A DNA stretch of 64,000 nt from Lachnospiraceae bacterium 28-4 (GTDB lineage Bacteria; Bacillota; Clostridia; Lachnospirales; Lachnospiraceae). The notes under the pieces are model-generated. The model searched no databases. It saw nothing but the letters and a program-made list of their open reading frames with translations, and was not told the DNA's origin. Below, piece by piece: positions 29,052 to 59,032 of this stretch. Made by a program: the position numbers and the translations under genes. Location: assembly GCA_000403275.2 (NCBI GenBank), contig KE159599.1, positions 1,198,147 to 1,262,146 on the forward strand. Direction: 5' to 3'. How positions within the stretch are numbered: the first letter of the stretch is position 1; the number at the start of each line of letters is the position of its first letter.

Positions 29052-29381
29052 ATGAACGGACGCAAAAGGACGGTACAGGTCAAATTCTATGTGACAGAGG
29101 AAGAACGCAACTTGATTGAGGAAAAAATGAAGCTCGTCCCCACAAGCAACATGGCGGCATATCTGCGCAAAATCGCCATTGACGGGTACATTATCCAAGT
29201 AGACCACACGGACATAAAAGCAATGACAGCAGAGATACAGAAAATCGGTGTCAATGTTAATCAGATCGCACGTCGCGTAAACGCGACGGGAAACGCCTAC
29301 AAAGAGGATATAGAGGAAATCAAGGGGGTGCTTGCGGAAATATGGCGGTTACAAAGATTAAGCCTGTTAAAAGCACTTTGA
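29052..29381 (+). CDS. MobC-family mobilisation accessory protein
   Basis: The 109-residue protein from ATG 29052 (after AAAGGAGC) has an N-terminal ribbon-helix-helix (RTVQVKFYVTEEERNLIEEKM) and the MobC signature IQKIGVNVNQIARRVNATG. MobC proteins bind and open oriT for the relaxase. The longer frame from 28926 runs through the candidate oriT and is not coding. It overlaps the relaxase start by 40 bases. Confidence 0.9.
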   Translation: MNGRKRTVQVKFYVTEEERNLIEEKMKLVPTSNMAAYLRKIAIDGYIIQVDHTDIKAMTAEIQKIGVNVNQIARRVNATGNAYKEDIEEIKGVLAEIWRLQRLSLLKAL

Positions 29382-30694
29382 GCAAAGCCCTTGACTATAT
29401 CGAAAACCCGGACAAGACGGACGGAAAAATGCTGGTGTCCTCTTTCGGGTGCAGCTATGAAACGGCAGATATTGAGTTTAGCTATACCCTCTCGCAAGCG
29501 CGGGATAAGGGCAATAATTTAGCCTTTCACTTGATACAATCCTTTGCGCCGGGGGAAGTGGACTATGAGAAAGCCCATGAGATCGGGCGGCAGCTTGCCG
29601 ACGCGGTGACAAAGGGGCAGCATGAATATGTACTCACGACGCACATTGACAAGGGGCATATCCATAACCACATTATTTTCTGCGCGGTCAACTTCGTAGA
29701 TCATCACAAGTACGTTTCCAACAAACGGACGTATTATGGCATACGGAACATGAGTGACAAGCTGTGCCGGGACAACGGGCTTTCCGTCGTCGTTCCCGGT
29801 AAAGGCAGCAAGGGAAAGAGCTATGCAGAATATCAAGCGGAGAAAACCGGGACAAGCTGGAAAGGCAAGCTAAAGATTGCCGTGGACGCGTTCATTCCCC
29901 AAGTTTCCAGCTTTGAAGAACTATTGCAGCGGTTACAGGCGGCGGGCTATGAGATCAAGCCGGGAAAATATGTGTCATGCCGCGCACCGGGGCAGGAACG
30001 GTTTACCCGCCTTAAAACCCTCGGCGCAGATTATACAGAGGAAGCCATAAGGGAACGGATAGCGGGCAAGCGCACCCGTGCCGCCAAAGCTCCCAAGACA
30101 GAGCGCAGGGGCGTTAATCTTCTCATTGACATTGAGAACAGTATCAAGGCACAACAGAGCCGGGGCTATGAACAGTGGGCGAAAATCCACAATCTGAAAC
30201 AGGCAGCAAAGACTATGAATTTCCTTACCGAAAATAAGATTGAGCAGTACGCCGATCTGCTGTCCCGGATAGAGGAAATCACCACGGCAAGCGAACAGAC
30301 GGGGGACAGCCTAAAGGAAGTGGAAAAGCGGCTTTCTGATATGGCATTGCTGATTAAGAACGTCACTACCTACCAAAAGACAAAGCCCCTTTATGAAGTC
30401 TACCGCAAAGCCCGGAACAAGGAGAAGTACCGGGCAGAGCATGAACGGGGTATTATCCTCCATGAAGCGGCGGCAAAGGCACTAAAGGCAGCGCAGATCG
30501 GCGGCAAGCTCCCCAGCGTCCCCGTTCTGCAAGCAGAGTATGAAAAACTCCAAGCGCAAAAAGAAAGCCTTTACGCCGACTATGGCAAGCTGAAAAAACA
30601 GGTTGCGAAGTACGACGTTATCAAGCGGAACATAGACAGTATTTTACAGTCAGAAAAACAGCCGGAACGGGAACGGCAGACAGAGCGCGGATAA
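29342..30694 (+). CDS. Relaxase of the ICE, MobP type
   Basis: The 450-residue protein has an N-terminal relaxase domain. A candidate catalytic Tyr lies in ALDYIENPDKT, and the His triad falls in HIDKGHIHNHIIF (H106, H108, H110). The C-terminal half is a long basic coiled coil. Relaxases nick oriT, stay bound to the 5' end and pilot the strand through the type IV channel. It is translationally coupled to MobC and followed by a terminator, so the two form one operon reading opposite to the secretion genes. Confidence 0.93.
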   Translation: MAVTKIKPVKSTLSKALDYIENPDKTDGKMLVSSFGCSYETADIEFSYTLSQARDKGNNLAFHLIQSFAPGEVDYEKAHEIGRQLADAVTKGQHEYVLTTHIDKGHIHNHIIFCAVNFVDHHKYVSNKRTYYGIRNMSDKLCRDNGLSVVVPGKGSKGKSYAEYQAEKTGTSWKGKLKIAVDAFIPQVSSFEELLQRLQAAGYEIKPGKYVSCRAPGQERFTRLKTLGADYTEEAIRERIAGKRTRAAKAPKTERRGVNLLIDIENSIKAQQSRGYEQWAKIHNLKQAAKTMNFLTENKIEQYADLLSRIEEITTASEQTGDSLKEVEKRLSDMALLIKNVTTYQKTKPLYEVYRKARNKEKYRAEHERGIILHEAAAKALKAAQIGGKLPSVPVLQAEYEKLQAQKESLYADYGKLKKQVAKYDVIKRNIDSILQSEKQPERERQTERG

Positions 30695-31242: not shown

Positions 31243-31460
31243 ACCTCGTCGGCGGGGTAAAGGGCAAGCCCCGCAAATTCCGCTTCGGTCATGCGCCCTA
31301 CTTTGGCAAGGGTACGGGCGGCAAAGTCCCGCATTTCCCCCTCCATAAAGGGCAGCGCGGCGTTCATAGCCACCAAAAGCCCCTCCTTGCTGCCTGTCAT
31401 GTAGATACTCAAAAGGTTGGTTTCCTCAACCGTAAAATTATTATATGTGTTCATGCTCAT
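31239..31460 (-). CDS. Transposon-transfer assisting protein (TTRAP family)
   Basis: The 73-residue protein with NNFTVEETNLLSIYMTGSKEGLL and MTEAEFAGLALYPADEV matches the TTRAP family of small proteins carried by Clostridia ICEs. The family name reflects association with transfer; the mechanism is unknown. It overlaps both neighbours by four bases (ATGA), so it is part of a translationally coupled chain. Confidence 0.8.
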   Translation of the reverse strand: MSMNTYNNFTVEETNLLSIYMTGSKEGLLVAMNAALPFMEGEMRDFAARTLAKVGRMTEAEFAGLALYPADEV

Positions 31461-32410
31461 ACCTCCAATCCGTGATTTTGTGTTTTCGCCGCCGCTTTCT
31501 TCGGGGCGGTTCTCTTTTTGTCCTGTGCAAGCTGCGCCCGGACAGAGGGGCGGGGCTTCCTTATCTGCCTGTCCCGGTTCTCGTCCTTGCCGATCAGCGC
31601 GTATGTGCCGTAGCTGTTCTTGATTTGTGAGAAAGCAAGGGTCTTGTAGGGCAGCATGGAGAAAAGACGTTCTGTGTCCTTTGTGGAAGCAAGCCGCATA
31701 AAGGACGGGGACAGCTCCACCATGAAATGAGATTTGTCCGGGCTGTTGGGGGCAGACAGCTTTTTCATGTCTGCCACAATGCGCCGCGCTTCCCGTTCGA
31801 TCATGCCCTCATGCAATGCGGCGATATGCTCCTTAAAATCCCCCGGTTTCAGTTTGTCCCGGCTTTCCTTTTCCTCCTGTAACAGAAATTGCAGGGCTTC
31901 CGGGTTTTGGGGCTGTACCTCGAAGCGTTCAAACTTCCCAAGCTGGGGGTCGGGATAACCGTCAAAGCGTCGGTCTGCGGGCTGCTCCCGCGTACCATGC
32001 TCATACACAAGCGTCACCGTCCCGGCTGCAAGGGTATTGTCTTTGACGCGCTCATAGTGCTTTTCATAGTCCAGCTCATACAGGTTGCCCTTGATCTTCC
32101 CGCCCTCTGTCCCGGTCAGCTCTACGGCATACGCAAGAATAGGGTCGCGGCTCTGCTCCTTGTAATAACGCCATGTGTTGTGCGGGGCGGTGTCGCTGAT
32201 GAAAATGTCACGCTCCCGGAAACAGTACGTCCCGGACGGGCGGGAAAGCCACAAGAGGGTTTTATCCTCCTTGCTGGGGCTTGCCGCCTTTTCCGCAATG
32301 ATCTGTTTGTCAATGTCAAAATCGCTCTGATAAAATCCCGTGTTCTGTTTCAGAATGGCTTCAAGGGAAGCCAGCACATCCACATTTTCAAATTTATTCC
32401 GTTTCCCCAT
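31457..32410 (-). CDS. Conserved ICE protein with basic C-terminal tail
   Basis: The 317-residue cytoplasmic protein has no recognised domain. Residues 1-215 look globular (FENVDVLASLEAILKQNTGFYQ, SGTYCFRERDIFISD). Residues 215-270 contain AARMKKLSA-like helices and FMVELSPSFMRLASTKDTERLFSML. The last 35 residues are strongly basic (KPRPSVRAQLAQDKKRTAPK...) and match the tail of the 1712-residue neighbour. It overlaps the TTRAP gene and starts five bases after the polyvalent gene stop. It is common in Tn1549-like elements; the function is unknown. Confidence 0.7.
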   Translation of the reverse strand: MGKRNKFENVDVLASLEAILKQNTGFYQSDFDIDKQIIAEKAASPSKEDKTLLWLSRPSGTYCFRERDIFISDTAPHNTWRYYKEQSRDPILAYAVELTGTEGGKIKGNLYELDYEKHYERVKDNTLAAGTVTLVYEHGTREQPADRRFDGYPDPQLGKFERFEVQPQNPEALQFLLQEEKESRDKLKPGDFKEHIAALHEGMIEREARRIVADMKKLSAPNSPDKSHFMVELSPSFMRLASTKDTERLFSMLPYKTLAFSQIKNSYGTYALIGKDENRDRQIRKPRPSVRAQLAQDKKRTAPKKAAAKTQNHGLEV

Positions 32411-32414
32411 AGGG

Positions 32415-35400
32415 TCAGCTCCTTTCCAAGTCCTGCGACTTACTTCTTGCCTGTTTCTTTTGCGCCGCCCGTTCCTTGTCGGCTTTAAGCTGCGCCCGGA
32501 TAGAGGGCTTCTTTTCCGGCTTTTTCCCCGGCTCCGCTTTCTTGCCCTGTTCCTTATCCGCTTTCAGTGCAGCGGCATACTCGGCAAGGGAGATCTGTTC
32601 GCCGCTTCTCGCCTTTGCTTCCAGCTCGTCGGCGGTAGGGGTGGGCGTGTTGTTGATGATACCGTCAAAATTATTGTCGTTCTGCTCGATAGCGTCCTCG
32701 ACGTGCTTTAAGGGGTTTGCCTTTTCCGGCTGCTCTGCGGCGACTGCAAACGCCTGTGTCCCGTTCCCCATAATGAGATATTTTCCGTCCTCCGACGTGT
32801 GGTGAAGCCCGTACCCGGCTTCCCGCATTTGCTCGGCGGTCATATCGGTTACAGAAAAGCTCCCCCGTGGCGTTCTGATCTGCTCCCCGGTCATGCGGGT
32901 GTCGGGGGTAAGCTGCGGTGTCTGCTCCTGTAAAAACTCCGGCACTTCCCGATAACCGTAACTGTCTGCATAGTGGGCGGTGTCCTGTCCGTTCTGATGA
33001 AGCACTACCACGTCAGAGGTTGAAAGGCTGTGTCCCTTAAAATCTTTCGGGTGGTCGATATTGAAACGGACGGAAATATCTTCAAGCGTCATATCCGGCG
33101 CAAGTGGCGCGGTATAGATAAGGTCATAATTCGCCGCTTCCACGGAAAGCCCCGCCGCCTGTAAGCGATCGTAAGGTTCAAAGCGGTAGTCCCTTGTTTC
33201 GTCGCCGCGCTTTAGCTGGTAAATGGTAAAGGTGTCCTTGTCCGGCTCTTTCTCTGCGGCGGTCGGCTCCGGCGTTTCCTGTCCCGGCTCGGCTGCGGGC
33301 TGTACTTCCTGTGCCTTTGCATAGAGTTCTTTCACGTCGCCCTGTGTCAGCTCCCCGGCTTCCAGCTTCCCCAAAAGCTCCCGGCATTTCTCCGGCGTTC
33401 CTGTGTAGAGAATGTCCCCCAGCTTTGCCATGCCGTTTTCCTGTGTCACATACTCCTGCAAGATAGAGCTGTTTTCCGGACTGTCGCTGTATGGGTTCTG
33501 CCGCACCTTATAAATGCTTTCCGGCTCAAAAGGTTTCTCCGGCGTGTCCGTGGTTCCCGGCTCCGCGCCCTGTGCTTCCTCCTGCGGCTGTTCCGGGGCG
33601 GCTTCTTTCTGTGCGGCGGCTTCCTGCCTTGCCCGCTTCTGTAACTCGGTGGGGCTTTCCCCGGTAAGGGGCTGTATGCACCCTATACGGTCGGCGGCGT
33701 AGATCGCATTTTCGTTTAGCTGCCGCTGCCATGCTTCCGCGCTGGGCGCATAGCGGAAGCCGTTCCCTTTGAGTTCCTCCCGTATCTCCTTATCCGGCTT
33801 TTCATCAAAGAAAATCTGCAAGCGGTTATCGGCTGTGTTGGCTTCCACACGTCCCCCGTCAAACTCCCAGCCCACATATCCAAGCTCTTTCCTCCGGGCA
33901 AGGGCGGTAATGCGGTCTTTCAGCCTGTGGATTTCCGCGTTGTTGTTGGATAGCTGGTAGCTCTCAAAAGGTTTCGGGTTCGCCCGGTAGCTGCCGGACA
34001 TGGACGCTTTCAGCTTTTCGATCTGCTCCGGGGATAAATGGGGGCAGCCGTCAAGGGTCTTATTCTTTCGGTAGTAGGCGTTGACCGCTTTCATGGTTTC
34101 CTGCAAGGCTTCCAGCTTTGCAAGTTTGCTTTCCAGCTTAGAAACAGCGTTGGGGTCGTCGGCACTGATACCGCCCATGCCCGTACTGCGGATTTTGTCA
34201 AGCAAGCCCTGTATCTCACGGTATTCCTCCATGTTCTTATCTGCGGCGGCGTTCTGTTTCTCCTTTTTACGGACAGGGAAATTGCTTCCCCCTGCAATAA
34301 GGATAGAGGGGACGCGCCCCGCGATTTCATAGCCCTTATTCATGTTTGCCGCCAGTTTCCGGGCGTAAGCGTCAAGCAGCCCGTCAATCCGTTCATGGAA
34401 AGAGGGGTCAACACGTCTTTTCTGCCTTGCGGCAATCTCGGCGGCTTCGTCTACATAGTGGCGGTATTCTGCCGTTGCGCTTCCGGGCTTGTAATCATAA
34501 AAGCTATTTACCGTATTTGCATGACGGGCGGCGTTCTCATTGATCGGGTAGTATGTAACCGTTGTTTCCGTCGGCTCCGGGGTAGAAGTCTGCGCCGCTT
34601 CGCTGGTGGTTGGCTCTGCCTGTTCCGGTGTGTCTGCCTTTTCGGAAGCGGTGCTTTCCGGCTCCTGCGGCTTTTCCTGTGCTTTGGGTTCTCCCGGCTC
34701 CTGCGGTTCGGCGGTCTGCGCTGCTTCCGGCTCCGGCGTGGTGTAAGGCTCATACCCATTAGCGGCGTATTCCTCCACGGTCATTCCCGCGTCTGCCGCT
34801 TCCTGTGCGATTTCTGCCTTGACGTGTTCCTTGTAGGCGGCAAGCTCCACGTCAAAATCTTTGAGCTGTGGGACGGGCGGCAAATGGTATTCGCCTTGAT
34901 TGATAAGCCCCCGGCACTCGGCAACGTAGGCTTGCATGGCGGTATGGTAGGCGGTTTCCGTTGGGGTAAGGCTCTCCCCGGCTAACAAGGCTCCTCCGGC
35001 GATACGCTCCATTTCGGATAAACTGCAATGCAGTTTCAGATAGGGGATAAACTCATTCAGCAGCATTGCCCGCTGTTCCTTGTCGGCTTCCAGTGCTTCC
35101 TTGCCCTCATGCTGTAAAAGGTAGTTTTCCCACTCTTTATCGTTCAGATAAAAGGTATGGTGCTGTTCGATATGCTCCATAAGGGAACCGTCCCCGTCGC
35201 CAAAATCCTGTTGCCCCTCGTAATGGTCGGGCTTTCCGTTCATTACATAATCAATCTGAAATCTCGTCTTGAAATAACGGGGCGTATCAAGGCTGGCTTC
35301 GTCCAGCACCGCAAACAGGGTATCGGCACGGGACAGGGGGATTGTTTCGCCCTCCCGTAGCTGGCTGCTTTCACTCCAAAGGATTGTGACCGTTGGCTCT

Positions 35401-37553
35401 GCCGAAAGGTCGGGTGTCGGCTCTTTTTCAGCTTCCTGTGCTTTCTCCGCTTCCCGTTCTTTTCTGATTTCCGCTAAATGCCCGTCAATGGTGTTAATCA
35501 GATCGGCGGCGGTGCTGCGGATTGTGGCAAGGGATTTTTTCAGCTCTGCAAGCTCCCGCCCGCTGCTCCATGTGGCAATGTAATTGAAAGAGTAGTCGGA
35601 CGTGTCAAGCCCGTAGTGCTGGCATACGGTGTAAGCGATACTTTCCGCCTGTACCTCCCTTGTGCTTCGGTCGGGGCGTTCCGGCGCGTCCCGGTCTATG
35701 TTGTGCAGCGTCGCGTGGGCGATTTCATGGATAGCGGTCTTTACGTTCTGAAGCTCGCTCATTCCCTCGTTGATCGCTATGCGCTGCCCGTCATAAAAGC
35801 AGCGTCCCTTTACTGTACCCTCCAACGCTTCAAAGCCCATAGCAAAGGGGGAAGTCCTTTCAAGGGCGGTAAAAAAGTCCCGGTATTGCTCCACGTCGCC
35901 TGTCAATTCGTTATCCGTAATGCCCGGTATCTCTTTCCCCTCGGTCTGTGATACGTCAAAAACAGACACTATCTTAAAGGCGGGGATTTGGATTTCCTTT
36001 GTTTCCGTGACGGGCTTCCCGTCTTTGCCGATTATGGGCTTTTGGGTTTGCGGGTCAATCTTTTCAACCTCCCGCTTGACTATGTAGGGGGACGGTGCAA
36101 GTATCTTGATAGATTTCTCGTCGGGCTTTACATGGCGGTCAAATTCCTTTTTCCATTGCTGGTAGCCTTTGACAAACGTTCCGCCCTGCATGGCAATCAG
36201 TACGGTGTTGTTAAAGCTGTAATTATGGAACTTTGATAAGGTTTGCAGATAATCGGTGTACCGCCCGTTTTCAAATACCCCCATAATTCCATGCTCCAAA
36301 CGGTCTGTGATTTCTTTCATTTTGTCGGTGGAATTTTTGGAAGTAAGGATAATCGGGGCAACCGGGCGCGGCTCAAAAACGGGTTCCGCTGCCGCTTCAA
36401 AATCCGATTTCTCCGGGGCGGGGCGTTCCGGCTCCGGGAAGCTCATAACCTTGTATTCTTTCGGTATGTCATTGTCACGCCCTTTGTACCACTGTGAAAA
36501 GGTGTTGCCGTTGTTGTAGATATAGCCTTGATCGGTAAACTGCCCTTTATCTTTCTGAACCGCGTCCCGCCCGTATTCCTCGTACTTGAAATACTTCTTT
36601 ACTTCTTCGGGCAGCTCCAATTCGTCCAGCTCGTCAATGAGGTAATAGCCGTAGTCGGCTTCGGTTCGGACAGCAGGGTATATCCAGTAGCAGTCAAGGT
36701 TCTGTGCAAGGTTGATAAGGTCTTTCACGCTCCCGGCGTGTTCCCCCAGCGTTACCGCCGCCGTGAATTTGTCCCTGTCCTCGTCGCTTTGCATTTCTAA
36801 GAGCTTTCCTAAATAATTCAGCTCGTCAATGGTGCTGCCCTGTATCACGGAAAGCGGCACGTCAAAGGGCTGCTTCTCGGTGTTTGCAAAACCGTTGATG
36901 AAAAAGTCCTGCGGGTTCTCTGCGGTAATGCCGACGCTTCTCATAACGGCGTGAAGCTGCTCCGTAGTGGTCGGCATGGAAAGCCACTCGCCGCCCGGTT
37001 TCCCGGTTTCAAAGCGGGTGCGGCTGTCGATTAGAATTGAAAATGTTTCGCTCATGCGTTTGCTCCTTTCTTTGTTCATCATGCGGTGCATAAGCTCGAA
37101 ATCTTCTATGCTCATGCTCCCGTCAAATACATAGGGGTTAAAGTCCTCCCCGTCCCGGTAGGGCTTTTCCGAAAAGGGAAGCCCTGCGGCGTGGGCGGCG
37201 GCTCTTGCTTCCTCCAACAGCTCCGGGGGTAAGGTGTCGTCGTGGGCTTCGATAAAGTCAGCCACGTTGTTATAGCCGTTCTCATAGTGGCGGCGTACCC
37301 CGGCGGTCAGCTCCGCAAGGTTCATGTCCTCGCCCAAGTAACCGCAATAGTAGCCGTTTAGGACAACGGCGGCGGGGTCTTTTTCCTGTATCTCCCGCAA
37401 GCGTCCCCTGTCCTCCGGGGTGAGGGTGTCGTCCGTTTCAAGGTAGATATAATCGCTGTGCCATGAACGCCCCTCCCGCCAAAACGCTACCCATGCAATC
37501 CCCGCTTGCAGTTCGTCTTGATAGTCCCTTACGGCTTCCCGTAAACCTGCCAT
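32415..37553 (-). CDS. Polyvalent antirestriction protein: N-terminal DUF, ArdA-like, ArdC-like zincin, LPD domains, YodL, DUF4316
   Basis: The 1712-residue protein is a string of modules. Residues 1-160 are a small unassigned domain. About 167-375 is ArdA-like (FSILIDSRTRFETGKPGGEWLSMPT, DFFINGF, EEYGRDAVQKDKGQFTDQGYI). About 400-700 is an ArdC-like ssDNA-binding and metallopeptidase region with HEIAH at 609-613. Then come large-polyvalent-protein-associated domains, an EWFDGG-type module near 1300 (GYVGWEFDGGRVEAN), YodL (about 1475-1580) and DUF4316 (about 1590-1712). Such proteins are thought to enter the recipient with the strand and block restriction or other defences. An internal ATG at 37055 with AAAGGAGC could give a shorter ArdA-started form. 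Confidence 0.85.
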   Translation of the reverse strand: MAGLREAVRDYQDELQAGIAWVAFWREGRSWHSDYIYLETDDTLTPEDRGRLREIQEKDPAAVVLNGYYCGYLGEDMNLAELTAGVRRHYENGYNNVADFIEAHDDTLPPELLEEARAAAHAAGLPFSEKPYRDGEDFNPYVFDGSMSIEDFELMHRMMNKERSKRMSETFSILIDSRTRFETGKPGGEWLSMPTTTEQLHAVMRSVGITAENPQDFFINGFANTEKQPFDVPLSVIQGSTIDELNYLGKLLEMQSDEDRDKFTAAVTLGEHAGSVKDLINLAQNLDCYWIYPAVRTEADYGYYLIDELDELELPEEVKKYFKYEEYGRDAVQKDKGQFTDQGYIYNNGNTFSQWYKGRDNDIPKEYKVMSFPEPERPAPEKSDFEAAAEPVFEPRPVAPIILTSKNSTDKMKEITDRLEHGIMGVFENGRYTDYLQTLSKFHNYSFNNTVLIAMQGGTFVKGYQQWKKEFDRHVKPDEKSIKILAPSPYIVKREVEKIDPQTQKPIIGKDGKPVTETKEIQIPAFKIVSVFDVSQTEGKEIPGITDNELTGDVEQYRDFFTALERTSPFAMGFEALEGTVKGRCFYDGQRIAINEGMSELQNVKTAIHEIAHATLHNIDRDAPERPDRSTREVQAESIAYTVCQHYGLDTSDYSFNYIATWSSGRELAELKKSLATIRSTAADLINTIDGHLAEIRKEREAEKAQEAEKEPTPDLSAEPTVTILWSESSQLREGETIPLSRADTLFAVLDEASLDTPRYFKTRFQIDYVMNGKPDHYEGQQDFGDGDGSLMEHIEQHHTFYLNDKEWENYLLQHEGKEALEADKEQRAMLLNEFIPYLKLHCSLSEMERIAGGALLAGESLTPTETAYHTAMQAYVAECRGLINQGEYHLPPVPQLKDFDVELAAYKEHVKAEIAQEAADAGMTVEEYAANGYEPYTTPEPEAAQTAEPQEPGEPKAQEKPQEPESTASEKADTPEQAEPTTSEAAQTSTPEPTETTVTYYPINENAARHANTVNSFYDYKPGSATAEYRHYVDEAAEIAARQKRRVDPSFHERIDGLLDAYARKLAANMNKGYEIAGRVPSILIAGGSNFPVRKKEKQNAAADKNMEEYREIQGLLDKIRSTGMGGISADDPNAVSKLESKLAKLEALQETMKAVNAYYRKNKTLDGCPHLSPEQIEKLKASMSGSYRANPKPFESYQLSNNNAEIHRLKDRITALARRKELGYVGWEFDGGRVEANTADNRLQIFFDEKPDKEIREELKGNGFRYAPSAEAWQRQLNENAIYAADRIGCIQPLTGESPTELQKRARQEAAAQKEAAPEQPQEEAQGAEPGTTDTPEKPFEPESIYKVRQNPYSDSPENSSILQEYVTQENGMAKLGDILYTGTPEKCRELLGKLEAGELTQGDVKELYAKAQEVQPAAEPGQETPEPTAAEKEPDKDTFTIYQLKRGDETRDYRFEPYDRLQAAGLSVEAANYDLIYTAPLAPDMTLEDISVRFNIDHPKDFKGHSLSTSDVVVLHQNGQDTAHYADSYGYREVPEFLQEQTPQLTPDTRMTGEQIRTPRGSFSVTDMTAEQMREAGYGLHHTSEDGKYLIMGNGTQAFAVAAEQPEKANPLKHVEDAIEQNDNNFDGIINNTPTPTADELEAKARSGEQISLAEYAAALKADKEQGKKAEPGKKPEKKPSIRAQLKADKERAAQKKQARSKSQDLERS

Positions 37554-39580: not shown

Positions 39581-39590
39581 TGTTGGATAG
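39581..39590. repeat. IME1 left terminal inverted repeat
   Basis: TGTTGGATAG, perfect inverse of the right end. Confidence 0.9.
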
Positions 39591-39618
39591 TTGGAATAGG
39601 TGACTTAGAAAATATCCA

Positions 39619-41256
39619 TTATTCAAGGGTTTCCAGTGCCCCTATGAACTTGTAATGGATAGTAAGTCGTTGAATTTTCTGCCCGTCTATCTCTACGGGT
39701 TCAGAAACAAGAATTTTTTCTATAAGTTGGTTGATTATCTTAAAATTGAGTTCCGTTATTCCTGCATAACCGCTTATCTGCTCCGCAAAATGCTCAATGG
39801 AAGATAACTGTTCTTTGTCCGCTATGGCACTTTTTTCAAGTTCCTTTATCTTGGCTGTCAGTTCTTCCTGCTCGCTGTCATACCTTGCCGACAACATTTG
39901 GAAACGCTTTTCCGTTATCAGTTCCCTTGTCAAATCCTCATACAGTTTGGCATACAGGTTTTCTATTTCCGACACTCGCTGTTTACATTGCCTTAGTTCC
40001 TTTTTCTGCTGTTCCTTGTCCGCTGACAGTTGGAGATTAAGACGCTCCGCAATTTCCGTTACCATTGCTTTCCTGTCCGCCAGTGCCTGTCCTGCGTGCT
40101 TCTGAATGTCCGCAAGCACAACTTCGTGAACCGTCCTCGCCTCAATGGTGTGTGATGAACAGCCCTCTTTCCCAAACTTGCGGTATTTGGTACAGCAGTA
40201 GAAAGTCTTGTCCAGTACGTTGTTCCGCTTTCTTTTCTGCTCGACTTTGGCAAGCATGGCACTCCCACAATCAGCGCATTTTATAATCCCTCGGAAAATG
40301 TTGTCATATCCGCTTGAGCTTTCCCCGATAACGGGCGGTCTGCCGTCCAAAATCTTCTGTACGGTGTTCCAACGGTTCTGTTCAATGATTGGCTCATGTG
40401 TTCCATAGATGATTTCACGCTCCGCATACGGGATATACTGTCTTTTCTTGGAACGCATGGTCTTTGTCGGTCTTTCCGCTACGGTGAGGTTTCCTGCATA
40501 GACGGGATTGCGTAAAATCTTGCTGACATAGGCAGTATCCCAGTCATACATTTTTTCCTCGTCAGTGTACCGCTCAAACATTTCCTTTTTGTAGAAACTC
40601 GGCTTAATGACTTTTGCCTTGCGCAAGCGGTTACAGATAGTGTGAAGCCCCACACCCTCCTCGGCAATTGAGAAAATCAGTTCCACAACAGGGGCGGTCA
40701 CTTCATCAATGACAAGGTGGTTATGGTCTTTCTCGTCTTTCTGATAACCGAACGGGGCGGTAGTAGCCATATACTTGCCCTGCATTCTCCTTGCATGGAG
40801 TGCGCTCTTGATTTTCCTTGACGTGTCCTTTGCGTACATTTCATTGATGATGTTGCGAAACGGCGTAATATCCATTTGTGCGTTGTCTATGGAGTCCACA
40901 CCGTCATTGATTGCAATGTACCGCACGTTATGGTTGGGGAAAAACACCTCGATATATGTACCCGTTTCAAGATAATTCCTCCCCAAACGTGACAGGTCTT
41001 TTGTGATGAGCGTTGACACTTCCCCGTCCTGTATGTCCTCGATAAGCTGTCGGAAAGCGGGGCGGTCATAGTTCGTACCGCTGTAACCGTCATCAACGTA
41101 AAACTGGCAGTTGAGAAAACCGTTGCGCTTGGCATATTCTTTCAGCATGGTTTTCTGTGTGCTGATACTCATGCTCTCGTTGTTTGTGCCGTCGTCTTTG
41201 GAAAGCCTGCAATATAAAGCAGTGATTTTGTCGTTATTCAGTTTTGCCCTTTTCAT
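39619..41256 (-). CDS. Large serine recombinase of IME1 (TndX/TnpX-like)
   Basis: The 545-residue recombinase has an N-terminal resolvase domain with nucleophile S19 (ALYCRLSKDDG) and YSGTNYDRPAFRQL and LSRLGRNYLETG motifs. A recombinase domain and a Zn-ribbon follow (CADCGSAMLAK, then FYCCTKYRKFGKEGCSSH), then a long coiled coil. It catalyses integration and excision at GA dinucleotides. It lies 38 bases inside the left end, as usual for such elements. Confidence 0.95.
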   Translation of the reverse strand: MKRAKLNNDKITALYCRLSKDDGTNNESMSISTQKTMLKEYAKRNGFLNCQFYVDDGYSGTNYDRPAFRQLIEDIQDGEVSTLITKDLSRLGRNYLETGTYIEVFFPNHNVRYIAINDGVDSIDNAQMDITPFRNIINEMYAKDTSRKIKSALHARRMQGKYMATTAPFGYQKDEKDHNHLVIDEVTAPVVELIFSIAEEGVGLHTICNRLRKAKVIKPSFYKKEMFERYTDEEKMYDWDTAYVSKILRNPVYAGNLTVAERPTKTMRSKKRQYIPYAEREIIYGTHEPIIEQNRWNTVQKILDGRPPVIGESSSGYDNIFRGIIKCADCGSAMLAKVEQKRKRNNVLDKTFYCCTKYRKFGKEGCSSHTIEARTVHEVVLADIQKHAGQALADRKAMVTEIAERLNLQLSADKEQQKKELRQCKQRVSEIENLYAKLYEDLTRELITEKRFQMLSARYDSEQEELTAKIKELEKSAIADKEQLSSIEHFAEQISGYAGITELNFKIINQLIEKILVSEPVEIDGQKIQRLTIHYKFIGALETLE

Positions 41257-41328
41257 TTTGTCCTCCTTGATGAAAAGGGACTTCCTCTTAACTCATATTA
41301 TACTATATTCCCTTTTCCGTTTCCAGTG

Positions 41329-41502
41329 CTAATTTGCGTTGTTTGCCGCTATCTCCTTAACCTTTTTTGTTATCTGTTCCTCGGCTATCCGCTTGAATAC
41401 TGTTTCCATTTTTTCAGTGCCTACATAGTGCCTTTCCACAATAATTTTTGTGGGTGGGTGCTGTCGGGTGGCTCTTTGCTGTGTATTGCTGTCTTTGCTC
41501 AT
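41329..41502 (-). CDS. 57-residue transposon-encoded protein upstream of the recombinase
   Basis: ATG at 41502 is preceded by AAAGGAGCAGATTT, an excellent ribosome binding site. The product starts MSKDSNTQQRATRQHPPTK and ends with a basic helix (FKRIAEEQITKKVKEIAANN). Small basic proteins in this position are typical of TnpX/TndX-type elements and may assist excision. The frame is short but well supported by the site and by its position 72 bases before the recombinase. Confidence 0.7.
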   Translation of the reverse strand: MSKDSNTQQRATRQHPPTKIIVERHYVGTEKMETVFKRIAEEQITKKVKEIAANNAN

Positions 41503-41526
41503 AAATCTGCTCCTTTAAAATAAAAT

Positions 41527-41554
41527 AGAGCGCATAGATTTTCCTATACGCTCT
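41527..41554 (-). terminator. Terminator after the hydrolase gene
   Basis: On the minus strand AGAGCGTATAG pairs with CTATGCGCTCT around a six-base loop and is followed by ATTTTATTTT. Confidence 0.75.
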
Positions 41555-41619
41555 GACGCTGTGTTACTTATTCAGTTCTGATTGTGGGAAATGGTTGTTT
41601 AGATACACAGGAATTTGTA

Positions 41620-42360
41620 TCAGCTTTGCAGATATTCAATCAGCTTATTTGCATATTCATCGCTATGCTCGTGTAAATACTGCCCATGTCCCATATGTTC
41701 AATCTCTATATCTACTATAGCAGGCAGATATTTCTTTAACAAAGTAACGCTCTTTCTTGGATATTGCTCATTTGAGCCTCTCCAGAACAAAATAACCCCC
41801 TTGTAATTTCTTATACTTTCAGGAATATGATACCTATACACAAATTCACACGCATTTTTTATAGTATTTGAGGTGATGCCCGTATAAAGCATTTCGATAA
41901 TACTGTTGTTATCTTTTCCCATAACGGCGTCCATCATAAATTTAGGGATTGCTTTTCCGTTTTGAATCCGCTTGATTGCTTTGCAGAATATATATTCATA
42001 TGGCTTTGTCAACAAGCCCATCTTTGTCAGAAACGCCGCATCCAAATGTGTTTTAGCGACATTAACATTGCCTCTTCCAATAATTTCAACAGCCATTGTT
42101 GCTCCCATAGAAAATCCAGACAGACAATACAAATTACCAGATAGATTATTTATTATGTAATTTTCTATCTCGTCGCAATTGTTTTTAAGACTGACAAGTT
42201 CATCTGTTCTTTCACTGTGACCATCCACTTCTGCCAATATCACATAATAATCTGCCAAATGTTTTAAAATTGGTTCATAGCAAAGCATTGCTGTGGAAGC
42301 CATTCCATGTATAAATAGTATTGACCTATTATTTTTATCGCCAAAACATAAAAAATTCAT
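41620..42360 (-). CDS. Alpha/beta hydrolase cargo gene of IME1
   Basis: The 246-residue protein starts MNFLCFGDKNNRSILFIHGMA after GGAGGATAGTGTT. It has the nucleophile elbow GFSMGA (GxSxG), an acidic residue in the RGSNEQYP strand region and a C-terminal His in HMGHGQYLHEH. This is the alpha/beta hydrolase fold; the substrate is unknown. Its base composition is clearly lower in GC than the MobA gene beside it, so it is probably late cargo. A longer frame starts at 42411. Confidence 0.85.
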   Translation of the reverse strand: MNFLCFGDKNNRSILFIHGMASTAMLCYEPILKHLADYYVILAEVDGHSERTDELVSLKNNCDEIENYIINNLSGNLYCLSGFSMGATMAVEIIGRGNVNVAKTHLDAAFLTKMGLLTKPYEYIFCKAIKRIQNGKAIPKFMMDAVMGKDNNSIIEMLYTGITSNTIKNACEFVYRYHIPESIRNYKGVILFWRGSNEQYPRKSVTLLKKYLPAIVDIEIEHMGHGQYLHEHSDEYANKLIEYLQS

Positions 42361-42439
42361 AACACTATCCTCCATCAATTCCGATTTTGTACCTTTAACA
42401 GAATACCACAATCAAACCCATATTTCTATTGAATTTCCA

Positions 42440-44014
42440 TTAAATTTCTTCCTCCCTCCGCTTAGTCTTGTTTTGTTGTCTGCTATGCTGTCGGCTCTCG
42501 TTCTGAAGCTCCCTTTCAAGGTTCTTTCTGTTGTAGCTGATTACTTCCGCATAAGCTAATTCTGTGGCGGTTTTGGTCTGCTCCTTGCCGATACTGTCAT
42601 ATTCCGATTGCAAAGACTGTATCTCTGCTTTCCACTGTTTAGGCGTTATCTTCTCGCCGTTCTGTAAAAGGCTCTGCATACGCTCCTTTAGTTCGGGGTA
42701 CTTTGCAAGGCTTTCTTTATGCTCCTTATCGTATCTCATTTTCGCAAGTCCTTTGAGTGACTGGCTCTCTTTATAGGTAGCTTGGATTGGCGCATAGAGG
42801 GCATACATTTTTGACAGTTCCTTTAATCGGTTTAGTTTCTGCCCCTTTGAAAGATGTACCGTTTCCAACTCTTGGTATCTCTGTTCCTTATCCGCTGTGA
42901 ATTTCGCAAGGCTCTCAAAGCTGTCTATCTTCCTTGTCGTGATGAATTTTTCTGCATTGTCGGCTGACTGCAAGGCGGTTCTGTCGGATATTCTTCTTAG
43001 GTGCTTTCCGCTGACAATCGGCAAATCAAGTCTGCCTTTGCGCTCCCTTACTTTTGCAATCATTTCCATGACTTCATTCTTCACGCTGACCGCTGTATTT
43101 TTAATCTTGGCATACTGTGCGCTGTGAAGTTCCTGCTTGGCAAGCATGAGCATTTCTTTCGCCTGTTCTAACAGCATATTGTTTTTGATGATTTCCCGAT
43201 TGATGTTTCCCCTCTCGGTCTGTATGCCCTTACGCTCTAAAGCGTTGGCAACTGCCCCGATATGGATAGTTGGCTCTTTATCAATGCCTTGCTCCTTAAA
43301 AGAACGGTGTTCCCAGTGAAGCGCAATCCCCAACTGCTCATTGGTGGCATTGATTGTGTCGGCTAAATCCTTGCGCCACATCTTGGCGTTTTCCTTACTG
43401 TTCCAGTCGGTGCTGTCGGCGGTGTGGCATTTCCACTGTTTACGGTTTTGCTTGTCAACTTTCTGCTGACCTGTCTTTTTATCAATCACTGGTATCTTTT
43501 CGCCGTTTTCGTCAAGGTCATAGATTTTCTTCTGTTTCGCTCCCCATTCCCCGTTTTCAGTGAGAGGGCGCATTGTGAGTAAAACATGGATATGGAGATT
43601 GCGCTGTCCTTTATCATTCTCGCTGTCATGTATCGCCCAGTCAGCGCACATTCCTTTATCAACAAAATTCCTCTGCACATAATCCCTCACGACTTCCTCC
43701 GCAAGTTCATAACTCCATTCGTTGGGAAGTGACGCTTTCAGCATTCTTGCAAGCTGTGATTTCTGCCCTTTCTCTGACAGTTCAACAGCGTTCCATAAGG
43801 TGGCTCTGTCTGCATACTCTTTAGGTGCGTTGGGTGGGAGAGAGATTTCACTGTGGACTAAATCTTCATGGTATTTAGGGCGGTAGGTCTGCCCGTCATA
43901 CTCACTCACAAGAATACTCCTGCTGATGTATGATGCTTTCTCAACTGCCGACTGCCCCTTGCTCCGTTTGACTATGGAAAAACGTGTGCTTGCCTGTTTC
44001 GTGACCTTACCCAT
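42440..44014 (-). CDS. MobA/MobL-type relaxase of IME1
   Basis: The relaxase domain begins TRFSIVKRSKGQSAVEKASYISR. The metal-binding HUH motif lies in QRNLHIHVLLTMRP (H141, H143), with DWAIHDSEND before it. A long helical C-terminal half with basic clusters follows. This is the MOBQ-type layout. ATG at 44014 is preferred over GTG at 44023 because AGGTG lies seven bases upstream. The oriT-like region lies immediately upstream, so the element can be mobilised in trans by the host ICE channel. Confidence 0.92.
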   Translation of the reverse strand: MGKVTKQASTRFSIVKRSKGQSAVEKASYISRSILVSEYDGQTYRPKYHEDLVHSEISLPPNAPKEYADRATLWNAVELSEKGQKSQLARMLKASLPNEWSYELAEEVVRDYVQRNFVDKGMCADWAIHDSENDKGQRNLHIHVLLTMRPLTENGEWGAKQKKIYDLDENGEKIPVIDKKTGQQKVDKQNRKQWKCHTADSTDWNSKENAKMWRKDLADTINATNEQLGIALHWEHRSFKEQGIDKEPTIHIGAVANALERKGIQTERGNINREIIKNNMLLEQAKEMLMLAKQELHSAQYAKIKNTAVSVKNEVMEMIAKVRERKGRLDLPIVSGKHLRRISDRTALQSADNAEKFITTRKIDSFESLAKFTADKEQRYQELETVHLSKGQKLNRLKELSKMYALYAPIQATYKESQSLKGLAKMRYDKEHKESLAKYPELKERMQSLLQNGEKITPKQWKAEIQSLQSEYDSIGKEQTKTATELAYAEVISYNRKNLERELQNESRQHSRQQNKTKRREEEI

Positions 44015-44237
44015 ACATAACACCTACATTCTGCCGACAGGGTAGTGGGGCGCATGGACAGACTTTGTGGGCAGATAAAAGCCGCACTTTGGCTTTTGTC
44101 TGAACGCAAAGTTCACTAAAGGGTAGCAAGCGCAGCTTGCGAAGGGGAATTGTCGTTTCCCCTTTTGGCTGTCGCAAGACAGACAACGCCCTCCGCAGGA
44201 GTCCATGCAAGTGAAACTTGCCCCTCGGAGAGCGCAC

Positions 44238-44285
44238 ATACCACCTCTGGTGGTATATCTGTGCGCACCCCGTAAACGGGGTGAA
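44238..44285 (+). promoter_or_regulatory. IME1 oriT-like region
   Basis: A hairpin ATACCACC-TCT-GGTGGTAT (44238-44256) is followed by ATCTGTGCG and a second hairpin CACCCCG-TAAA-CGGGGTG. An inverted repeat next to a TGCGC-type core is the design of MOBQ (RSF1010-like) origins of transfer. The whole interval 44,024-44,320 upstream of the relaxase is rich in inverted repeats, and its layout recurs at the window end (63,790-63,985). Confidence 0.6.
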
Positions 44286-44320
44286 TATGTTACCTCGGCT
44301 TTCCAGTGTCCTTGCCTTTG

Positions 44321-44662
44321 TCATTCCGTACCGCCCTCGCTTTCATTTTCGGCATTGGGGAGAGTGGATTGTGGGGGAGTGGTTTCTCGGCTTTCCGCTT
44401 TGATTTTAGAGATAATCTGCTGACACTCCCTTGTCTGCAATGCAACCGACAAGATACGGTTTAACTCGCCCTCGTCATAGCGGTAGCAGTCGGGGAAATA
44501 CTTCACAATGATACCGCCCATGATGTACTTGTGGTGGTTCTCGGCTTTGCGTTTTTTCTCGTTCTGCTTTTTCTTCTCATTGGCTACACGCTGTTTCGCC
44601 TGTTCCAATGCCTGCAATGCTTTTTCTAAATTTCTGCTTGCGTCATTTTTGCTCTCAATCAT
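44321..44662 (-). CDS. Small helical accessory mobilisation protein (DUF3847-like)
   Basis: The 113-residue protein has an N-terminal coiled coil (NLEKALQALEQAKQRVANEKKKQNEKKRKAENHHKYIMGG, in parts) and then IIVKYFPDCYRYDEGELNRIL. Small proteins of this type precede MobA in related elements and probably help relaxosome assembly. It is on the same strand, upstream of the oriT-like region and the relaxase. Confidence 0.65.
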   Translation of the reverse strand: MIESKNDASRNLEKALQALEQAKQRVANEKKKQNEKKRKAENHHKYIMGGIIVKYFPDCYRYDEGELNRILSVALQTRECQQIISKIKAESRETTPPQSTLPNAENESEGGTE

Positions 44663-44813
44663 CTTGATACCTCATTCTTTCTGTACTGTGTTGATTAGTT
44701 TTGGAAATAAAAAAGGTAGCTGATTGTCTGTTAAGATAATCGCTACCTAAAGGTAAACAATATTTAGTTTTCATATCATTTTTCTGTCTTGATTTTTCCC
44801 GACAAACTGGAAT

Positions 44814-45392
44814 TTATTGAAATGTAATTCTCAAAAGACAAAAATCAAATCCTTGCCGTATGCTTTGCACAATTTCTACATAGACAGGTTTTTCAAAAAC
44901 AATCTCAAATAATTTTTTGTTATATCCAGCAGTGCAGTGACACCATGTTAATGAATTTGAATTTTTTGCTTTTTCTAACATAGGACATTCACAAGTAAAC
45001 ATTTTTGTATACAGTTGATTATCTTTAATAAACCAACCGGCACCATTTTCGTTCAGAGCATTGACAAATCTATGCAAATCCTTATCCAAAGAGAGATAGA
45101 GTTGTTTCAAGTTATTTGCTGTATCTTCTAACCTACCATTTTCATTACAATAGCACTCTTGGCGAATGTTTTTTACCGTTTTTTTATCAAATCTATTTTC
45201 AAGAATAGCAGATAGCTTTTCTACCCACTCGGCTCGAATGTCTGGTGTTGAATTTATAGATAATGGAATTTCCTTTATTATGCTTTCTGCAACTTCCCTT
45301 GATACATTCTTTTCCAAACTATGTTTCAACCTCATTAACTCATCTATTTCTAATGTCGGAGAAACTTGCTCTGGCATAGAAAAATTTTTCAT
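44814..45392 (-). CDS. Cys-rich cytoplasmic protein (DUF6144 / ATC-hydrolase-like), IME1 cargo
   Basis: The 192-residue protein has a helical N-terminal half and Cys motifs ECYCNENG, FTCECPML and TWCHCTAGYNKKLFE, then PVYVEIVQSIRQGFDFC. This resembles the DUF6144 / L-2-amino-thiazoline-4-carboxylate-hydrolase-like group, whose members probably bind metal. The physiological role is unknown. It is AT-rich relative to the neighbours, as are its flanks, suggesting cargo inserted between mobilisation genes. Confidence 0.65.
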   Translation of the reverse strand: MKNFSMPEQVSPTLEIDELMRLKHSLEKNVSREVAESIIKEIPLSINSTPDIRAEWVEKLSAILENRFDKKTVKNIRQECYCNENGRLEDTANNLKQLYLSLDKDLHRFVNALNENGAGWFIKDNQLYTKMFTCECPMLEKAKNSNSLTWCHCTAGYNKKLFEIVFEKPVYVEIVQSIRQGFDFCLLRITFQ

Positions 45393-45477
45393 ATTCTTTC
45401 TCCTTAAATTCGATTTGTTAAATTGTTCAATGTCATTATCTTACCACAAACGCATACACAATTCCATTAAATTTTCT

Positions 45478-45759
45478 TTAATTTCCCTTTGCCTTGTTAT
45501 TTGCAATCATCATCTGCCTTGCCCGTTCCCTCTGCTCTGTACTGAACGCCCTCGGCTTGCGGTAGCAGACGTATGACTTTGGAAAAGAATAGGTCTTAGA
45601 TACCTCGTCCTGCCCTGTCAGCTTGTATGTGTCGGGGAAGTCGGCAACAAGCGTGTCAAGTTTCCGCATAACCGCTTTATCCCTTGTATAGAGGGTGGCG
45701 GTCTTTTCTCCTGCATTATAATTGACAATCGTTTCCTGTTCGTATCGGGAAAGTTTCAT
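45478..45759 (-). CDS. Conserved small IME protein (93 aa)
   Basis: The product reads MKLSRYEQETIVNYNAGEKTATLYTRDKAVMRKLDTL (in parts), with SKTYSFPKSYVCYRKPRAFSTEQRERARQMM. Proteins like this are widespread next to MobA-type elements of Clostridia without known function; the basic C-terminus suggests nucleic acid binding. It overlaps the next upstream gene by four bases. Confidence 0.7.
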   Translation of the reverse strand: MKLSRYEQETIVNYNAGEKTATLYTRDKAVMRKLDTLVADFPDTYKLTGQDEVSKTYSFPKSYVCYRKPRAFSTEQRERARQMMIANNKAKGN

Positions 45760-46364
45760 AGTGCCATATCCCCCTTTCCTTTGCTGTGGGTTCTGTGCTT
45801 TTTTCCCTCGGAAACTGTCGGCTGTTTTGCCTGTTCCTTTGCTCTGGCTAACCTTGTCCTTATGGAGTGGTCACGCTCGGTCAGTTTCCGTCTTTTGGTG
45901 GTGGCGGTCAGTTCCGCACACGTTTCTTCTGACAGGGAATTTAATTTCTTTAAGGTGCTACTTACTATCTGCTTTGTGTTATCGTCTTTTATCTGCGGAA
46001 GAATAGCAGACAGACTGGCGCACGTTTCCGCTTTTCCCTGTTCTCCAAACTGGTAAATCAGATTGATTTCATCAGCGTTAAAAGGTATCTGTATATTTGC
46101 GCCCTCACATAAACGCTCCACGCCCACGCACTTAGGGAGATTTTTTGTCAGTTCGTAATTATCCCTCGCTGTGATTGTTCCATGCCTGTCGGTCTGCCTT
46201 ACCTCGACTTCACACTGGCTTTTCTGTTCCAACACAAGCCACTGGTATTTATCGTTTTCTTTCGTAAATACAGTCTGATGCGCATTGGAGTGTGTCTTGC
46301 TACGGATATATTTGTCGGCGGTACTGTAATAGTCCAAAATCTGTTGTTCCTGCTTTTTATTCAT
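45756..46364 (-). CDS. Conserved IME1 protein of unknown function (202 aa)
   Basis: The protein starts MNKKQEQQILDYYSTADKYIRSK, has a beta-rich middle (WLVLEQKSQCEVEVRQTDRHGTITARDNYELTKN, in parts), an acidic/helical segment and a basic tail (LTATTKRRKLTERDHSIRTRLARAKEQ, in parts). No domain is recognised. It is the first gene of the IME1 mobilisation unit, coupled by ATGA overlap to the 93-residue gene. Confidence 0.65.
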   Translation of the reverse strand: MNKKQEQQILDYYSTADKYIRSKTHSNAHQTVFTKENDKYQWLVLEQKSQCEVEVRQTDRHGTITARDNYELTKNLPKCVGVERLCEGANIQIPFNADEINLIYQFGEQGKAETCASLSAILPQIKDDNTKQIVSSTLKKLNSLSEETCAELTATTKRRKLTERDHSIRTRLARAKEQAKQPTVSEGKKHRTHSKGKGDMAL

Positions 46365-46615
46365 GGTCTTTGCCCTCCTGTGATATGGATTGATATGATT
46401 GATTGGTTTCGGTGTTGATATATGATTTTTTCTCGTTACTTGTTGGGAGATTTGATTGCGGAATACTGTTGTTGGGTATTTCTCCGCTTGGGGAATAGGA
46501 GTTCATTTCATACGGTAATTACCGCATGAAAAAAGACTATAACCGATACTGTCATAGCCTTTTAAGGATTGAGGAAGTCCCTTTTTTATTTGTATTTGTT
46601 TGTCGCCCCTCCGCA

Positions 46616-46625
46616 CTATCCAACA
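46616..46625. repeat. IME1 right terminal inverted repeat
   Basis: CTATCCAACA, perfect inverse of the left end. The interval 46365-46615 holds no gene and probably contains the promoter of the IME1 mobilisation unit. Confidence 0.9.
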
Positions 46626-56571: not shown

Positions 56572-56577
56572 AACCGT

Positions 56578-56775
56578 TTACCCGCACAATCCAGACGGAA
56601 CACGGTCACATGGAACCTCGTCTTTATTATATCTCATTTCTTGTGTTTTAGCAAGATATTCTTTATCTATTTTTCTGGTGTGTTTCTGTGCGATAAGGCT
56701 CACGAAAACGTCCGTAGCGTCCAGTTCGCCGTCAAATATTGTGGTGACATGAATCTCTGTTTTATTTTTCGCCAT
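56578..56775 (-). CDS. Small conserved protein upstream of the IME2 recombinase (65 aa)
   Basis: ATG at 56775 follows GGAGGACAACTGCCT. The product reads MAKNKTEIHVTTIFDGELDATDVFVSLIAQK and ends VPSGLCG. Small proteins of this kind often precede TndX-like recombinase genes. The function is unknown. The longer frame from 56838 lacks a ribosome binding site. Confidence 0.75.
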   Translation of the reverse strand: MAKNKTEIHVTTIFDGELDATDVFVSLIAQKHTRKIDKEYLAKTQEMRYNKDEVPCDRVPSGLCG

Positions 56776-56818
56776 AGGCAGTTGTCCTCCATAGATGAAA
56801 ACAGCCAGACAGGGAAGG

Positions 56819-57010
56819 CCGGCAACGAAGTCCGGCAACGGGCTTCAAAAAACCTTGGAACTAATCCTTGTCTGGCAGTTGGGTTATTTTATACTTTTTC
56901 TTTTATTTTTCTGTTGCTTTGGTTGTTAAAGGGGAGAAAAGCCGACAGTTACGGGATTTTGCCTGGCAACCGGCCCGGCAACGGGACAGCAACGAAGTGT
57001 GCAACGGGCT
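56819..57010. repeat. Iteron-like GCAACG repeats
   Basis: GCAACGAAGT followed by GCAACGGGCT occurs at 56822-56844 and again at 56989-57010. A further CCGGCAACGGG lies at 56975-56985, and inverted GTTGCC copies lie at about 57100-57113 inside the helicase gene. They lie between the recombinase unit and the VirE/primase genes, the place expected for a replication origin. Confidence 0.55.
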
Positions 57011-57028
57011 GTCATTTGCCGGATTTTT

Positions 57029-59009: not shown

Positions 59010-59032
59010 TAGGCGTTTCCTCCTGATAATCC

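Follow-up and report, generated by a model that had tools for sequence, protein, structure and literature searches.

The window analysed here, a 64,000-nucleotide stretch of the genome of Lachnospiraceae bacterium 28-4, carries an integrative and conjugative element (ICE) and two integrative and mobilizable elements, IME1 and IME2. Two adjoining ICE genes encode a protein of 317 amino acids (aa) and one of 1712 aa, both of which end in a common basic C-terminal tail, and the MOBQ (MobA_MobL) relaxase of IME2 ends in a related one (Table 1). A previous, sequence-only reading had described both ICE proteins as ending in KPS(I/V)RAQL and had named the relaxase as a carrier of a related tail. The coordinates and the common tail proved correct, although the 317-aa protein reads R-P-S and not K-P-S, and the end of the relaxase (GKKPSVQGNLKGRQERIRQEQAEKRQPPRTQKQQNMEL) bears out the relationship. 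A fourth candidate, absent from that list, is the TTRAP protein of IME1. In the following, proteins that end in the tail are called tagged.

The tail and its carriers in the window

The tail has the form K/R-P-S-(I/V)-x-x-x-L and then continues to the stop with about 24 residues that are mostly basic and apparently flexible. Its anatomy was derived from 51 tails selected with an S-(I/V/L)-x-x-x-(L/I) pattern, by which the Ser and both hydrophobic positions are fixed by construction. Pro directly precedes the Ser in 42 of them and K or R stands at Ser-2 in 49. Of the two hydrophobic positions, the first is occupied by I or V in 48 tails and the second by L in 49. Counted from the Ser onward, 41 of the 51 tails are 28–32 residues long (range 24–36); over all 51, the net charge of this part averages +3.8 (range +1 to +9). 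In 14 polyvalent protein sequences, the PSIRAQLKAD block reaches a mean pairwise identity of 0.79 versus 0.34 for the ten residues preceding it. Within the family of the 317-aa protein (the 317 family), only S289 and L294 are invariant in an alignment of 29 rows, two of which are of doubtful homology. AlphaFold2 predicted a confident globular body for the 317-aa protein (mean predicted local distance difference test, pLDDT, 87.1), a helix at residues 290–300 directly after Ser289 (pLDDT about 57–69), and disorder beyond it; in a low-confidence model of PcfB (mean pLDDT 69.4, predicted template modelling score 0.40), a helix likewise begins directly after the equivalent Ser129. We read the tail from these models as a predicted Ser-capped helix, one face of which bears the I/V and the L, with a flexible basic end behind it. 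Within the named families, matches reach the stop or come close to it, except for an internal stretch in TTRAP-DUF5720 proteins and one match (L080) located 33 residues ahead of the stop.

Table 1. Coordinates of tagged proteins, their tails, and related features in the window.
Feature	Position	Strand	Remarks
317-aa tagged ICE protein	31457..32410	(-)	ends ...RKPRPSVRAQLAQDKKRTAPKKAAAKTQNHGLEV
Tail of the 317-aa protein (KPRPSVRAQL...HGLEV)	31460..31558	(-)	at stop
1712-aa polyvalent protein	32415..37553	(-)	ends ...KKPEKKPSIRAQLKADKERAAQKKQARSKSQDLERS
Tail of the 1712-aa polyvalent protein (KKPSIRAQL...DLERS)	32418..32513	(-)	
MOBQ (MobA_MobL) relaxase of IME2	59135..60724	(-)	ends GKKPSVQGNLKGRQERIRQEQAEKRQPPRTQKQQNMEL
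Tail of the IME2 relaxase (KKPSVQGNL...QNMEL)	59138..59248	(-)	
202-aa TTRAP protein of IME1	45756..46364	(-)	PF14203, E 1.6e-15
Tail-like C-terminus of the IME1 TTRAP protein (RDHSIRTRLARAKEQ...GDMAL)	45759..45872	(-)	
ICE's own MOBP relaxase, untagged	29342..30694	(+)	0.4 bits
IME1 interval (approximate)	39581..46618		contains recombinase 39619-41256, untagged relaxase 42440-44023, TTRAP protein
IME2 coding span, recombinase to tagged relaxase	54907..60724	(-)	

The 1712-aa protein comprises, by Pfam, the domains LPD15, ArdA, ArdC-N, M78 (zincin-type) peptidase, LPD25, YodL, and DUF4316, followed by the tail. Judged by this predicted architecture, i.e., disparate domains including ArdC-N, a zincin-type peptidase and LPDs within a conjugative element, it is a polyvalent protein. 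The 317-aa protein has no family match in Pfam or NCBIfam, and a comparison of its body with PDB and viral folds returned nothing at E ≤ 0.001. Its family was found at 45 loci in public genomes, and the tail stands at the stop in 44 of them; the sole exception (L043) lacks the C-terminal half of the protein. The polyvalent gene adjoining the 317-family gene ends in the tail at no fewer than 38 of the 45 loci. Two short members of the 317 family (L136:11953-12693 and L140:13631-14365) are devoid of a C-terminal portion of the body but still end in the tail. When window proteins were left out of model building, the IME2 relaxase tail scored 9.9 bits and the tail-like end of the IME1 TTRAP protein 14.4 bits; a relaxase-free model gave the IME2 relaxase 3.5 bits. 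The TTRAP end may be a looser, less clear case of the tail or, alternatively, a cut-down DUF5720 start.

Occurrence of the tail across genomes and protein families

A six-frame search of the entire 4.28 Mb genome, not anchored to stops, was made with a model of 11 tails (A1). Of 16 matches at E ≤ 10, nine had E ≤ 1.2e-10, and the next one followed at E 0.12. All nine strong matches are ICE or IME proteins, namely three members of the 317 family, three polyvalent proteins, the TTRAP protein, and two copies of the IME relaxase. Three of the seven weaker ones truly end in the tail, which applies to two DUF3801 proteins (L062 and L064) and a DUF3849 protein (L060), the latter adjoining an LPD26-SpoVG protein with a similar end; the other four are internal and TTRAP-like. 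A second model (A2, 14 tails) was applied to 196 genomes of the class, yielding 54 matches at E ≤ 0.1, spread over 24 genomes; 40 of these had E ≤ 0.01, and 32, from 15 genomes, had E ≤ 0.001. At E ≤ 0.01, 39 of the 40 matches belong to mobile-element families or to genes in a row with them, if a chimeric open reading frame (ORF) beside an ArdA fragment in genome G161 is counted as mobile; the exception is a 39-residue frame in G079. Enrichment of the motif, which the sequence-only reading had proposed as a check, was evident from the reversed A2 model, with 3 matches (best E 0.0035) versus 54 in forward direction, and from 418 control ORF ends in 20 stretches away from elements, none of which scored 5 bits. 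Equal frequency in unrelated non-mobile proteins, which would have spoken against that reading, was thus not observed. Among 398 genomes sampled from the whole phylum, seven had a match at E ≤ 0.01 (42-tail model), three of them in the class of the window; the tail is thin beyond this class. Leaving out one family at a time, 51 of 51 tails scored above the best of the 418 control ends, a result that is not independent of the earlier tail models. Most tails were gathered with such models and are circular in this respect, and the surveys of relaxases, ArdA, and VirD4 described below are fairer tests. Five weak A2 matches (L081, L083, and L085–L087) look like chance, and an alkaline phosphatase N-terminus joined to a tail (L071/L144, 475-2031), probably a chimera, remnant, or assembly fault, was not used as a family.

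The tail was identified at the stop in at least a dozen Pfam-distinct families. Tagged ArdA types are ArdA alone (L070 and L136), ArdA-DUF3846, and ArdA-DUF3846-LPD18-DUF4316, and tagged ArdC types combine ArdC-N with a metallopeptidase or with DUF3849. Further tagged families are YodL-DUF4316, DUF3849, DUF4313, DUF3846-DUF4314, LPD34, LPD1, LPD26-SpoVG, and DUF6674, along with SNF2-type helicases of 2460 and 3508 aa, the shorter of which has a weak Eco57I methylase match. The tagged DUF3801 protein adjoins a CD1115-family VirD4; DUF3801 is the PcfB family in public plasmid annotation. Tagged genes may stand in rows, with four in L136 (9674-15535) and four in L164 (757-5145). Family tallies covered the window, 40 stretches fetched around tail matches, and 20 further VirD4 stretches. 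Tagged fractions are biased upward in stretches chosen by tail, and amounted to 8/8 for the 317 family, 8/12 for polyvalent proteins, 7/9 for ArdA, 4/7 for ArdC, and 4/4 for LPD34, leaving four polyvalent, two ArdA, and three ArdC members without the tail. Zero counts are unbiased, and they include the machine parts examined, i.e., VirB4 (0/32), VirB6 (0/29), PrgI (0/23), VirD4 (0/35), and the hydrolase (0/18). The tail was also absent from DUF4366 (0/14), topoisomerase (0/13), MobC (0/10), Cys-rich VLP (0/9), short TTRAP (0/5), serine recombinase (0/22), integrase (0/3), and RepA (0/15).

Association with VirD4, PcfB, and relaxases

VirD4 (PF02534) was found in 74 of the 196 genomes, comprising 14 of the 15 tail genomes (E ≤ 0.001) versus 60 of the 181 others (p = 5e-6); the tail genome without it is G161, whose tail ORF is the chimera mentioned above. 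In a tree of 39 VirD4 proteins, a single clade with 22 rows (support 100/99) holds 15 of the 16 that have a tagged PcfB (≥ 5 bits). The tagged-PcfB label was clustered beyond all 500 shuffles, with near-copies contributing and a single origin not indicated; labels in this tree are rough, as L166 is drawn without PcfB yet has a tagged one. Among PcfB proteins found by a body-only model, the tail is present at ≥ 5 bits in all 11 from the 40 tail stretches and in 7 of the 11 from the 20 further VirD4 stretches (18 of 22 in all). A tail that is universal in PcfB systems is ruled out by the other four, which score below 5 bits. Regarding PcfB ends of another kind, the Enterococcus faecium plasmid pEfmO_03 (L240) encodes a PcfB (19224-20378) and an ArdC-like protein (32608-33639) with a common C-terminal stretch that is unlike the tail in the window. 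The likeness of these ends scored 79 versus 47 ± 6.5 (1 of 2000 shuffles), with 5 of 2000 for PcfB and relaxase and 203 of 2000 for ArdC and relaxase; as the stretch is of low complexity, a separate pEfmO_03 tail is suggestive only.

The ICE of the window retains VirB4, VirB6, PrgI, the hydrolase, topoisomerase III, and the MOBP relaxase, which corresponds to the Tn1549-like (CD1115/CD1110/CD1112) set, and its gene content and order resemble those of the annotated L238. Its topoisomerase III gene is interrupted by IME1 after about residue 107, with homologous matches at 37814-39580 and 46619-46936. VirD4 and PcfB, which also belong to a Tn1549-like element, had no tblastn match in the window or the following 20 kb; neither was found downstream of VirB6 and IME2 (53841-64000), and none of the five VirD4 matches of the genome lies on the contig of the window (C2). 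Two sister ICEs on contig C1 possess both. Because VirD4 and PcfB were found there and not beside the window ICE, its tagged proteins would be exportable only in trans. A second, closely similar copy of the IME2 relaxase is located on C1 as well (L056, G000:C1:1287979-1291101), near another ICE (L133) that bears tagged DUF6674 and SpoVG proteins.

ArdA provides an internal contrast. A family search identified ArdA in 22 of the 196 genomes, and six of the ArdA ORF ends read carry the tail, a count that leaves out four polyvalent ArdA loci and L250. Four ArdA proteins of 164–166 aa have no tail, and longer untagged ones also occur. The stretches around the four small proteins (L295–L298) contained no VirD4, PcfB, or tail; in the two that were scanned with Pfam, L295 and L298, an FtsK/SpoIIIE-type ATPase was named in both, and L295 has a Rep_trans relaxase as well. 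We take these four elements to be Tn916-like. The solved ArdA 2w82 (ORF18, 165 aa) matches residues 13–189 of a 264-aa tagged ArdA, and genome G048 holds both the tagged and the untagged kind.

Relaxases were chosen by family and not by tail, and they were scored with a model of 51 non-relaxase tails. Two of 30 MOBP and four of 30 MobA_MobL loci were dropped for lack of an ORF over the match, the rows analysed being given as 29 and 28, respectively; these include near-copies (L167/L196 and L186/L187), some fragments, and a wrong ORF for L190. Nine of the 28 MobA_MobL rows scored ≥ 7 bits, as compared to 2.3 bits for the best of 355 control ends, and seven of the nine have the Ser core. The core is also visible by eye in three low-scoring relaxases, L176 (-0.3 bits), L185 (4.0 bits), and that of IME2 (3.5 bits). 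Two of the 29 MOBP rows reached ≥ 7 bits (32 and 23 bits), and a further tagged MOBP relaxase (L079) was met in the tail search. The untagged relaxase of IME1 scored 1.8 bits. A match between relaxase tails and a subclade-specific PcfB tail was rejected as weak (7–8 bits versus 5.2–7.0 bits for unrelated ends).

Tails of different families resemble each other more closely inside one element than across elements. This cross-family likeness was 1.56 per residue versus 1.35 ± 0.055 after permutation (0 of 5000; 71 pairs, 16 elements), where element labels were shuffled within families and related elements are not independent. Without the one element that contains near-copies, the remaining 61 pairs gave 1.48 versus 1.315 ± 0.041 (1 of 5000 permutations). 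Such element-specific likeness fits either a cognate receptor or a common history.

A candidate address for type IV secretion

The distribution of the tail is as predicted for a secretion address: it stands at the stop, on anti-restriction and polyvalent proteins and some relaxases, was seen on none of the machine parts, and occurs together with VirD4 and PcfB. The best reading is that tagged proteins are those useful in the recipient, with the machine's own parts untagged and some hitchhiking relaxases tagged. From the tail's position, distribution, VirD4/PcfB link, and variation between elements, we infer a receptor, docking, and transfer, and consider it fairly probable that the tail acts as a C-terminal recruitment signal for a PcfB–VirD4 type IV secretion system (T4SS), one that serves establishment proteins and that IMEs have copied. 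The system concerned would be a Tn1549-like conjugative T4SS, in which PcfB (DUF3801) adjoins a CD1115-type VirD4. In the donor, the Ser-started amphipathic helix P-S-(I/V)-x-x-x-L and the basic flexible stretch would dock on VirD4, or on VirD4-bound PcfB, which itself might be cargo or an adaptor displaying the same peptide. Tagged ArdA, ArdC-type polyvalent proteins, methylase-helicases, and others would then travel with the DNA to the recipient, where they would protect and establish the newcomer. Disarming of restriction in the recipient by these proteins is suggested by domain names (ArdA and ArdC-N) and by the polyvalent-protein proposal of 2017. By giving this tail to their relaxase, or perhaps to a helper, IMEs would borrow the ICE channel. 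The sequence-only reading had likewise proposed a T4SS signal; C-terminal position, net positive charge, and the link to VirD4 agree with it, whereas the tail is a defined motif of narrow length rather than charge alone, and most relaxases surveyed are untagged. More tentative, at slightly less than an even chance, is a compact Gram-positive address code, i.e., a 30-residue tag with an element-specific spelling matched to the element's own PcfB–VirD4, which would serve injection of an ICE payload of anti-restriction, methylase-helicase, and other establishment proteins into the recipient and be forged by IMEs to board a foreign ICE. Under such a code, the injected proteome of any element of this type would be predictable from sequence.

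Several observations weigh against a recruitment signal of this kind. Seventeen of the 28 MobA_MobL rows scored below 4 bits or had no score, and two of the nine high-scoring rows (L172 and L181) lack the Ser core. All but two of the MOBP rows stayed below 7 bits, including the window ICE's own relaxase (0.4 bits). As most surveyed relaxases are untagged, the tail is not required by every substrate. Since this holds for most MOBP relaxases, they need another route to VirD4; in other T4SSs, internal signals can serve for relaxase recruitment (PMC10025392). Plasmid pCF10, in which PcfB and VirD4 are annotated, lacks a tail of this kind, and in six plasmid PcfB regions outside pCF10, the canonical PcfB tail was found only in L238. 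Four TTRAP-like proteins (L058, L059, L061, and L063; DUF5720 by Pfam in L059 and L061) contain a stretch resembling the tail core, NSIRxRLA, inside the protein. An untagged ArdA (L266) stands beside a tagged one, and another untagged ArdA (L252; stretch L299, G066:C16) lies near a VirD4 where no PcfB was found. Finally, 22 of 25 codons are identical in one within-element tail pair, which points to gene conversion or duplication as a source of the within-element likeness.

The L299 case hints that it may be PcfB, and not just VirD4, that the tail accompanies, and so touches an alternative that we regard as unlikely: the tail may be a docking peptide for PcfB or for relaxosome or DNA, in donor or recipient, and no translocation signal, its role being to assemble anti-restriction and processing proteins on the strand that is transferred. 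PcfB, which is encoded beside VirD4, is itself tagged in most cases, the tail is basic, and ArdC-N has been described as DNA binding (PMC5512222). However, conservation of the I/V and the L is suggestive of a protein pocket rather than of DNA charge, the variation between elements suggests a cognate protein, and docking by itself does not explain why MobC and topoisomerase are untagged. Very improbable, in our estimate, is an old recombining module without function of its own, spread by homology among element genes. The near-copy tails at the DNA level would suit such a module, but elsewhere codons diverge while residues are kept (10 of 17 codons identical in the tail pair of the window), the core is conserved far above the preceding linker, and no machine part was seen to carry it. 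We give equally little credence to a degradation tag or a membrane or pole targeting helix of early-expressed conjugation proteins, which would suit a short basic amphipathic helix at the stop but leaves the VirD4/PcfB linkage and the MobA_MobL relaxase tails unexplained.

BID domains span about 100 aa. The tail, with about 30 residues that are predicted to be flexible after one short helix, is shorter than the 100–120 residues of BID and XVIPCD domains. Basic C-terminal signals, BID, and XVIPCD, along with the recruitment of substrates by VirD4, have been reviewed (PMC10025392 and PMC12624023). In the VirB/VirD4 system, positively charged C-terminal signals are found on Vir effectors (VirF and others) and in the last 48 aa of MobA (PMC10025392). 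These are C-terminal, basic, and common to accessory proteins and relaxases, like the tail (PMC10025392), which differs in its defined S-(I/V)-x-x-x-L core, its narrow length, and its presence in at least a dozen families of Gram-positive elements. BID is likewise a signal module of effectors and conjugative relaxases tied to VirD4 (PMC10025392 and PMC6509941); however, it is a domain adjoining a charged tail (PMC10025392). XVIPCD is a C-terminal VirD4-interacting module on interbacterial T4SS effectors (PMC10025392), but comprises about 120 residues and serves bacterial killing, whereas the tail is found on conjugation establishment proteins. Iyer et al. proposed in 2017 that conjugative elements deliver their polyvalent proteins along with the DNA (PMC5512222). 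The 1712-aa protein is of the same kind; the tag, in contrast, is also found on non-polyvalent proteins and relaxases, and the available part of that paper describes no delivery tag, be it as a secretion signal or as a C-terminal or basic tail. Our literature search, which included four literal motif strings and covered few subscription journals, returned no paper naming the tail. We also know of no common tail among the proteins transferred by pED208, an F plasmid. Its conjugative T4SS delivers ParA, ParB1, ParB2, SSB, PsiA, and PsiB to recipients (PMC8406263), but it is Gram-negative and the proteins are others.

If the tail is indeed such a recruitment signal, it would turn the old proposal of anti-restriction proteins shipped with the DNA into a testable cargo list. 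It would further provide a handle on substrate choice by Gram-positive VirD4, suggest how IMEs find their helper ICE, and offer a short tag for protein delivery between gut bacteria in the laboratory.

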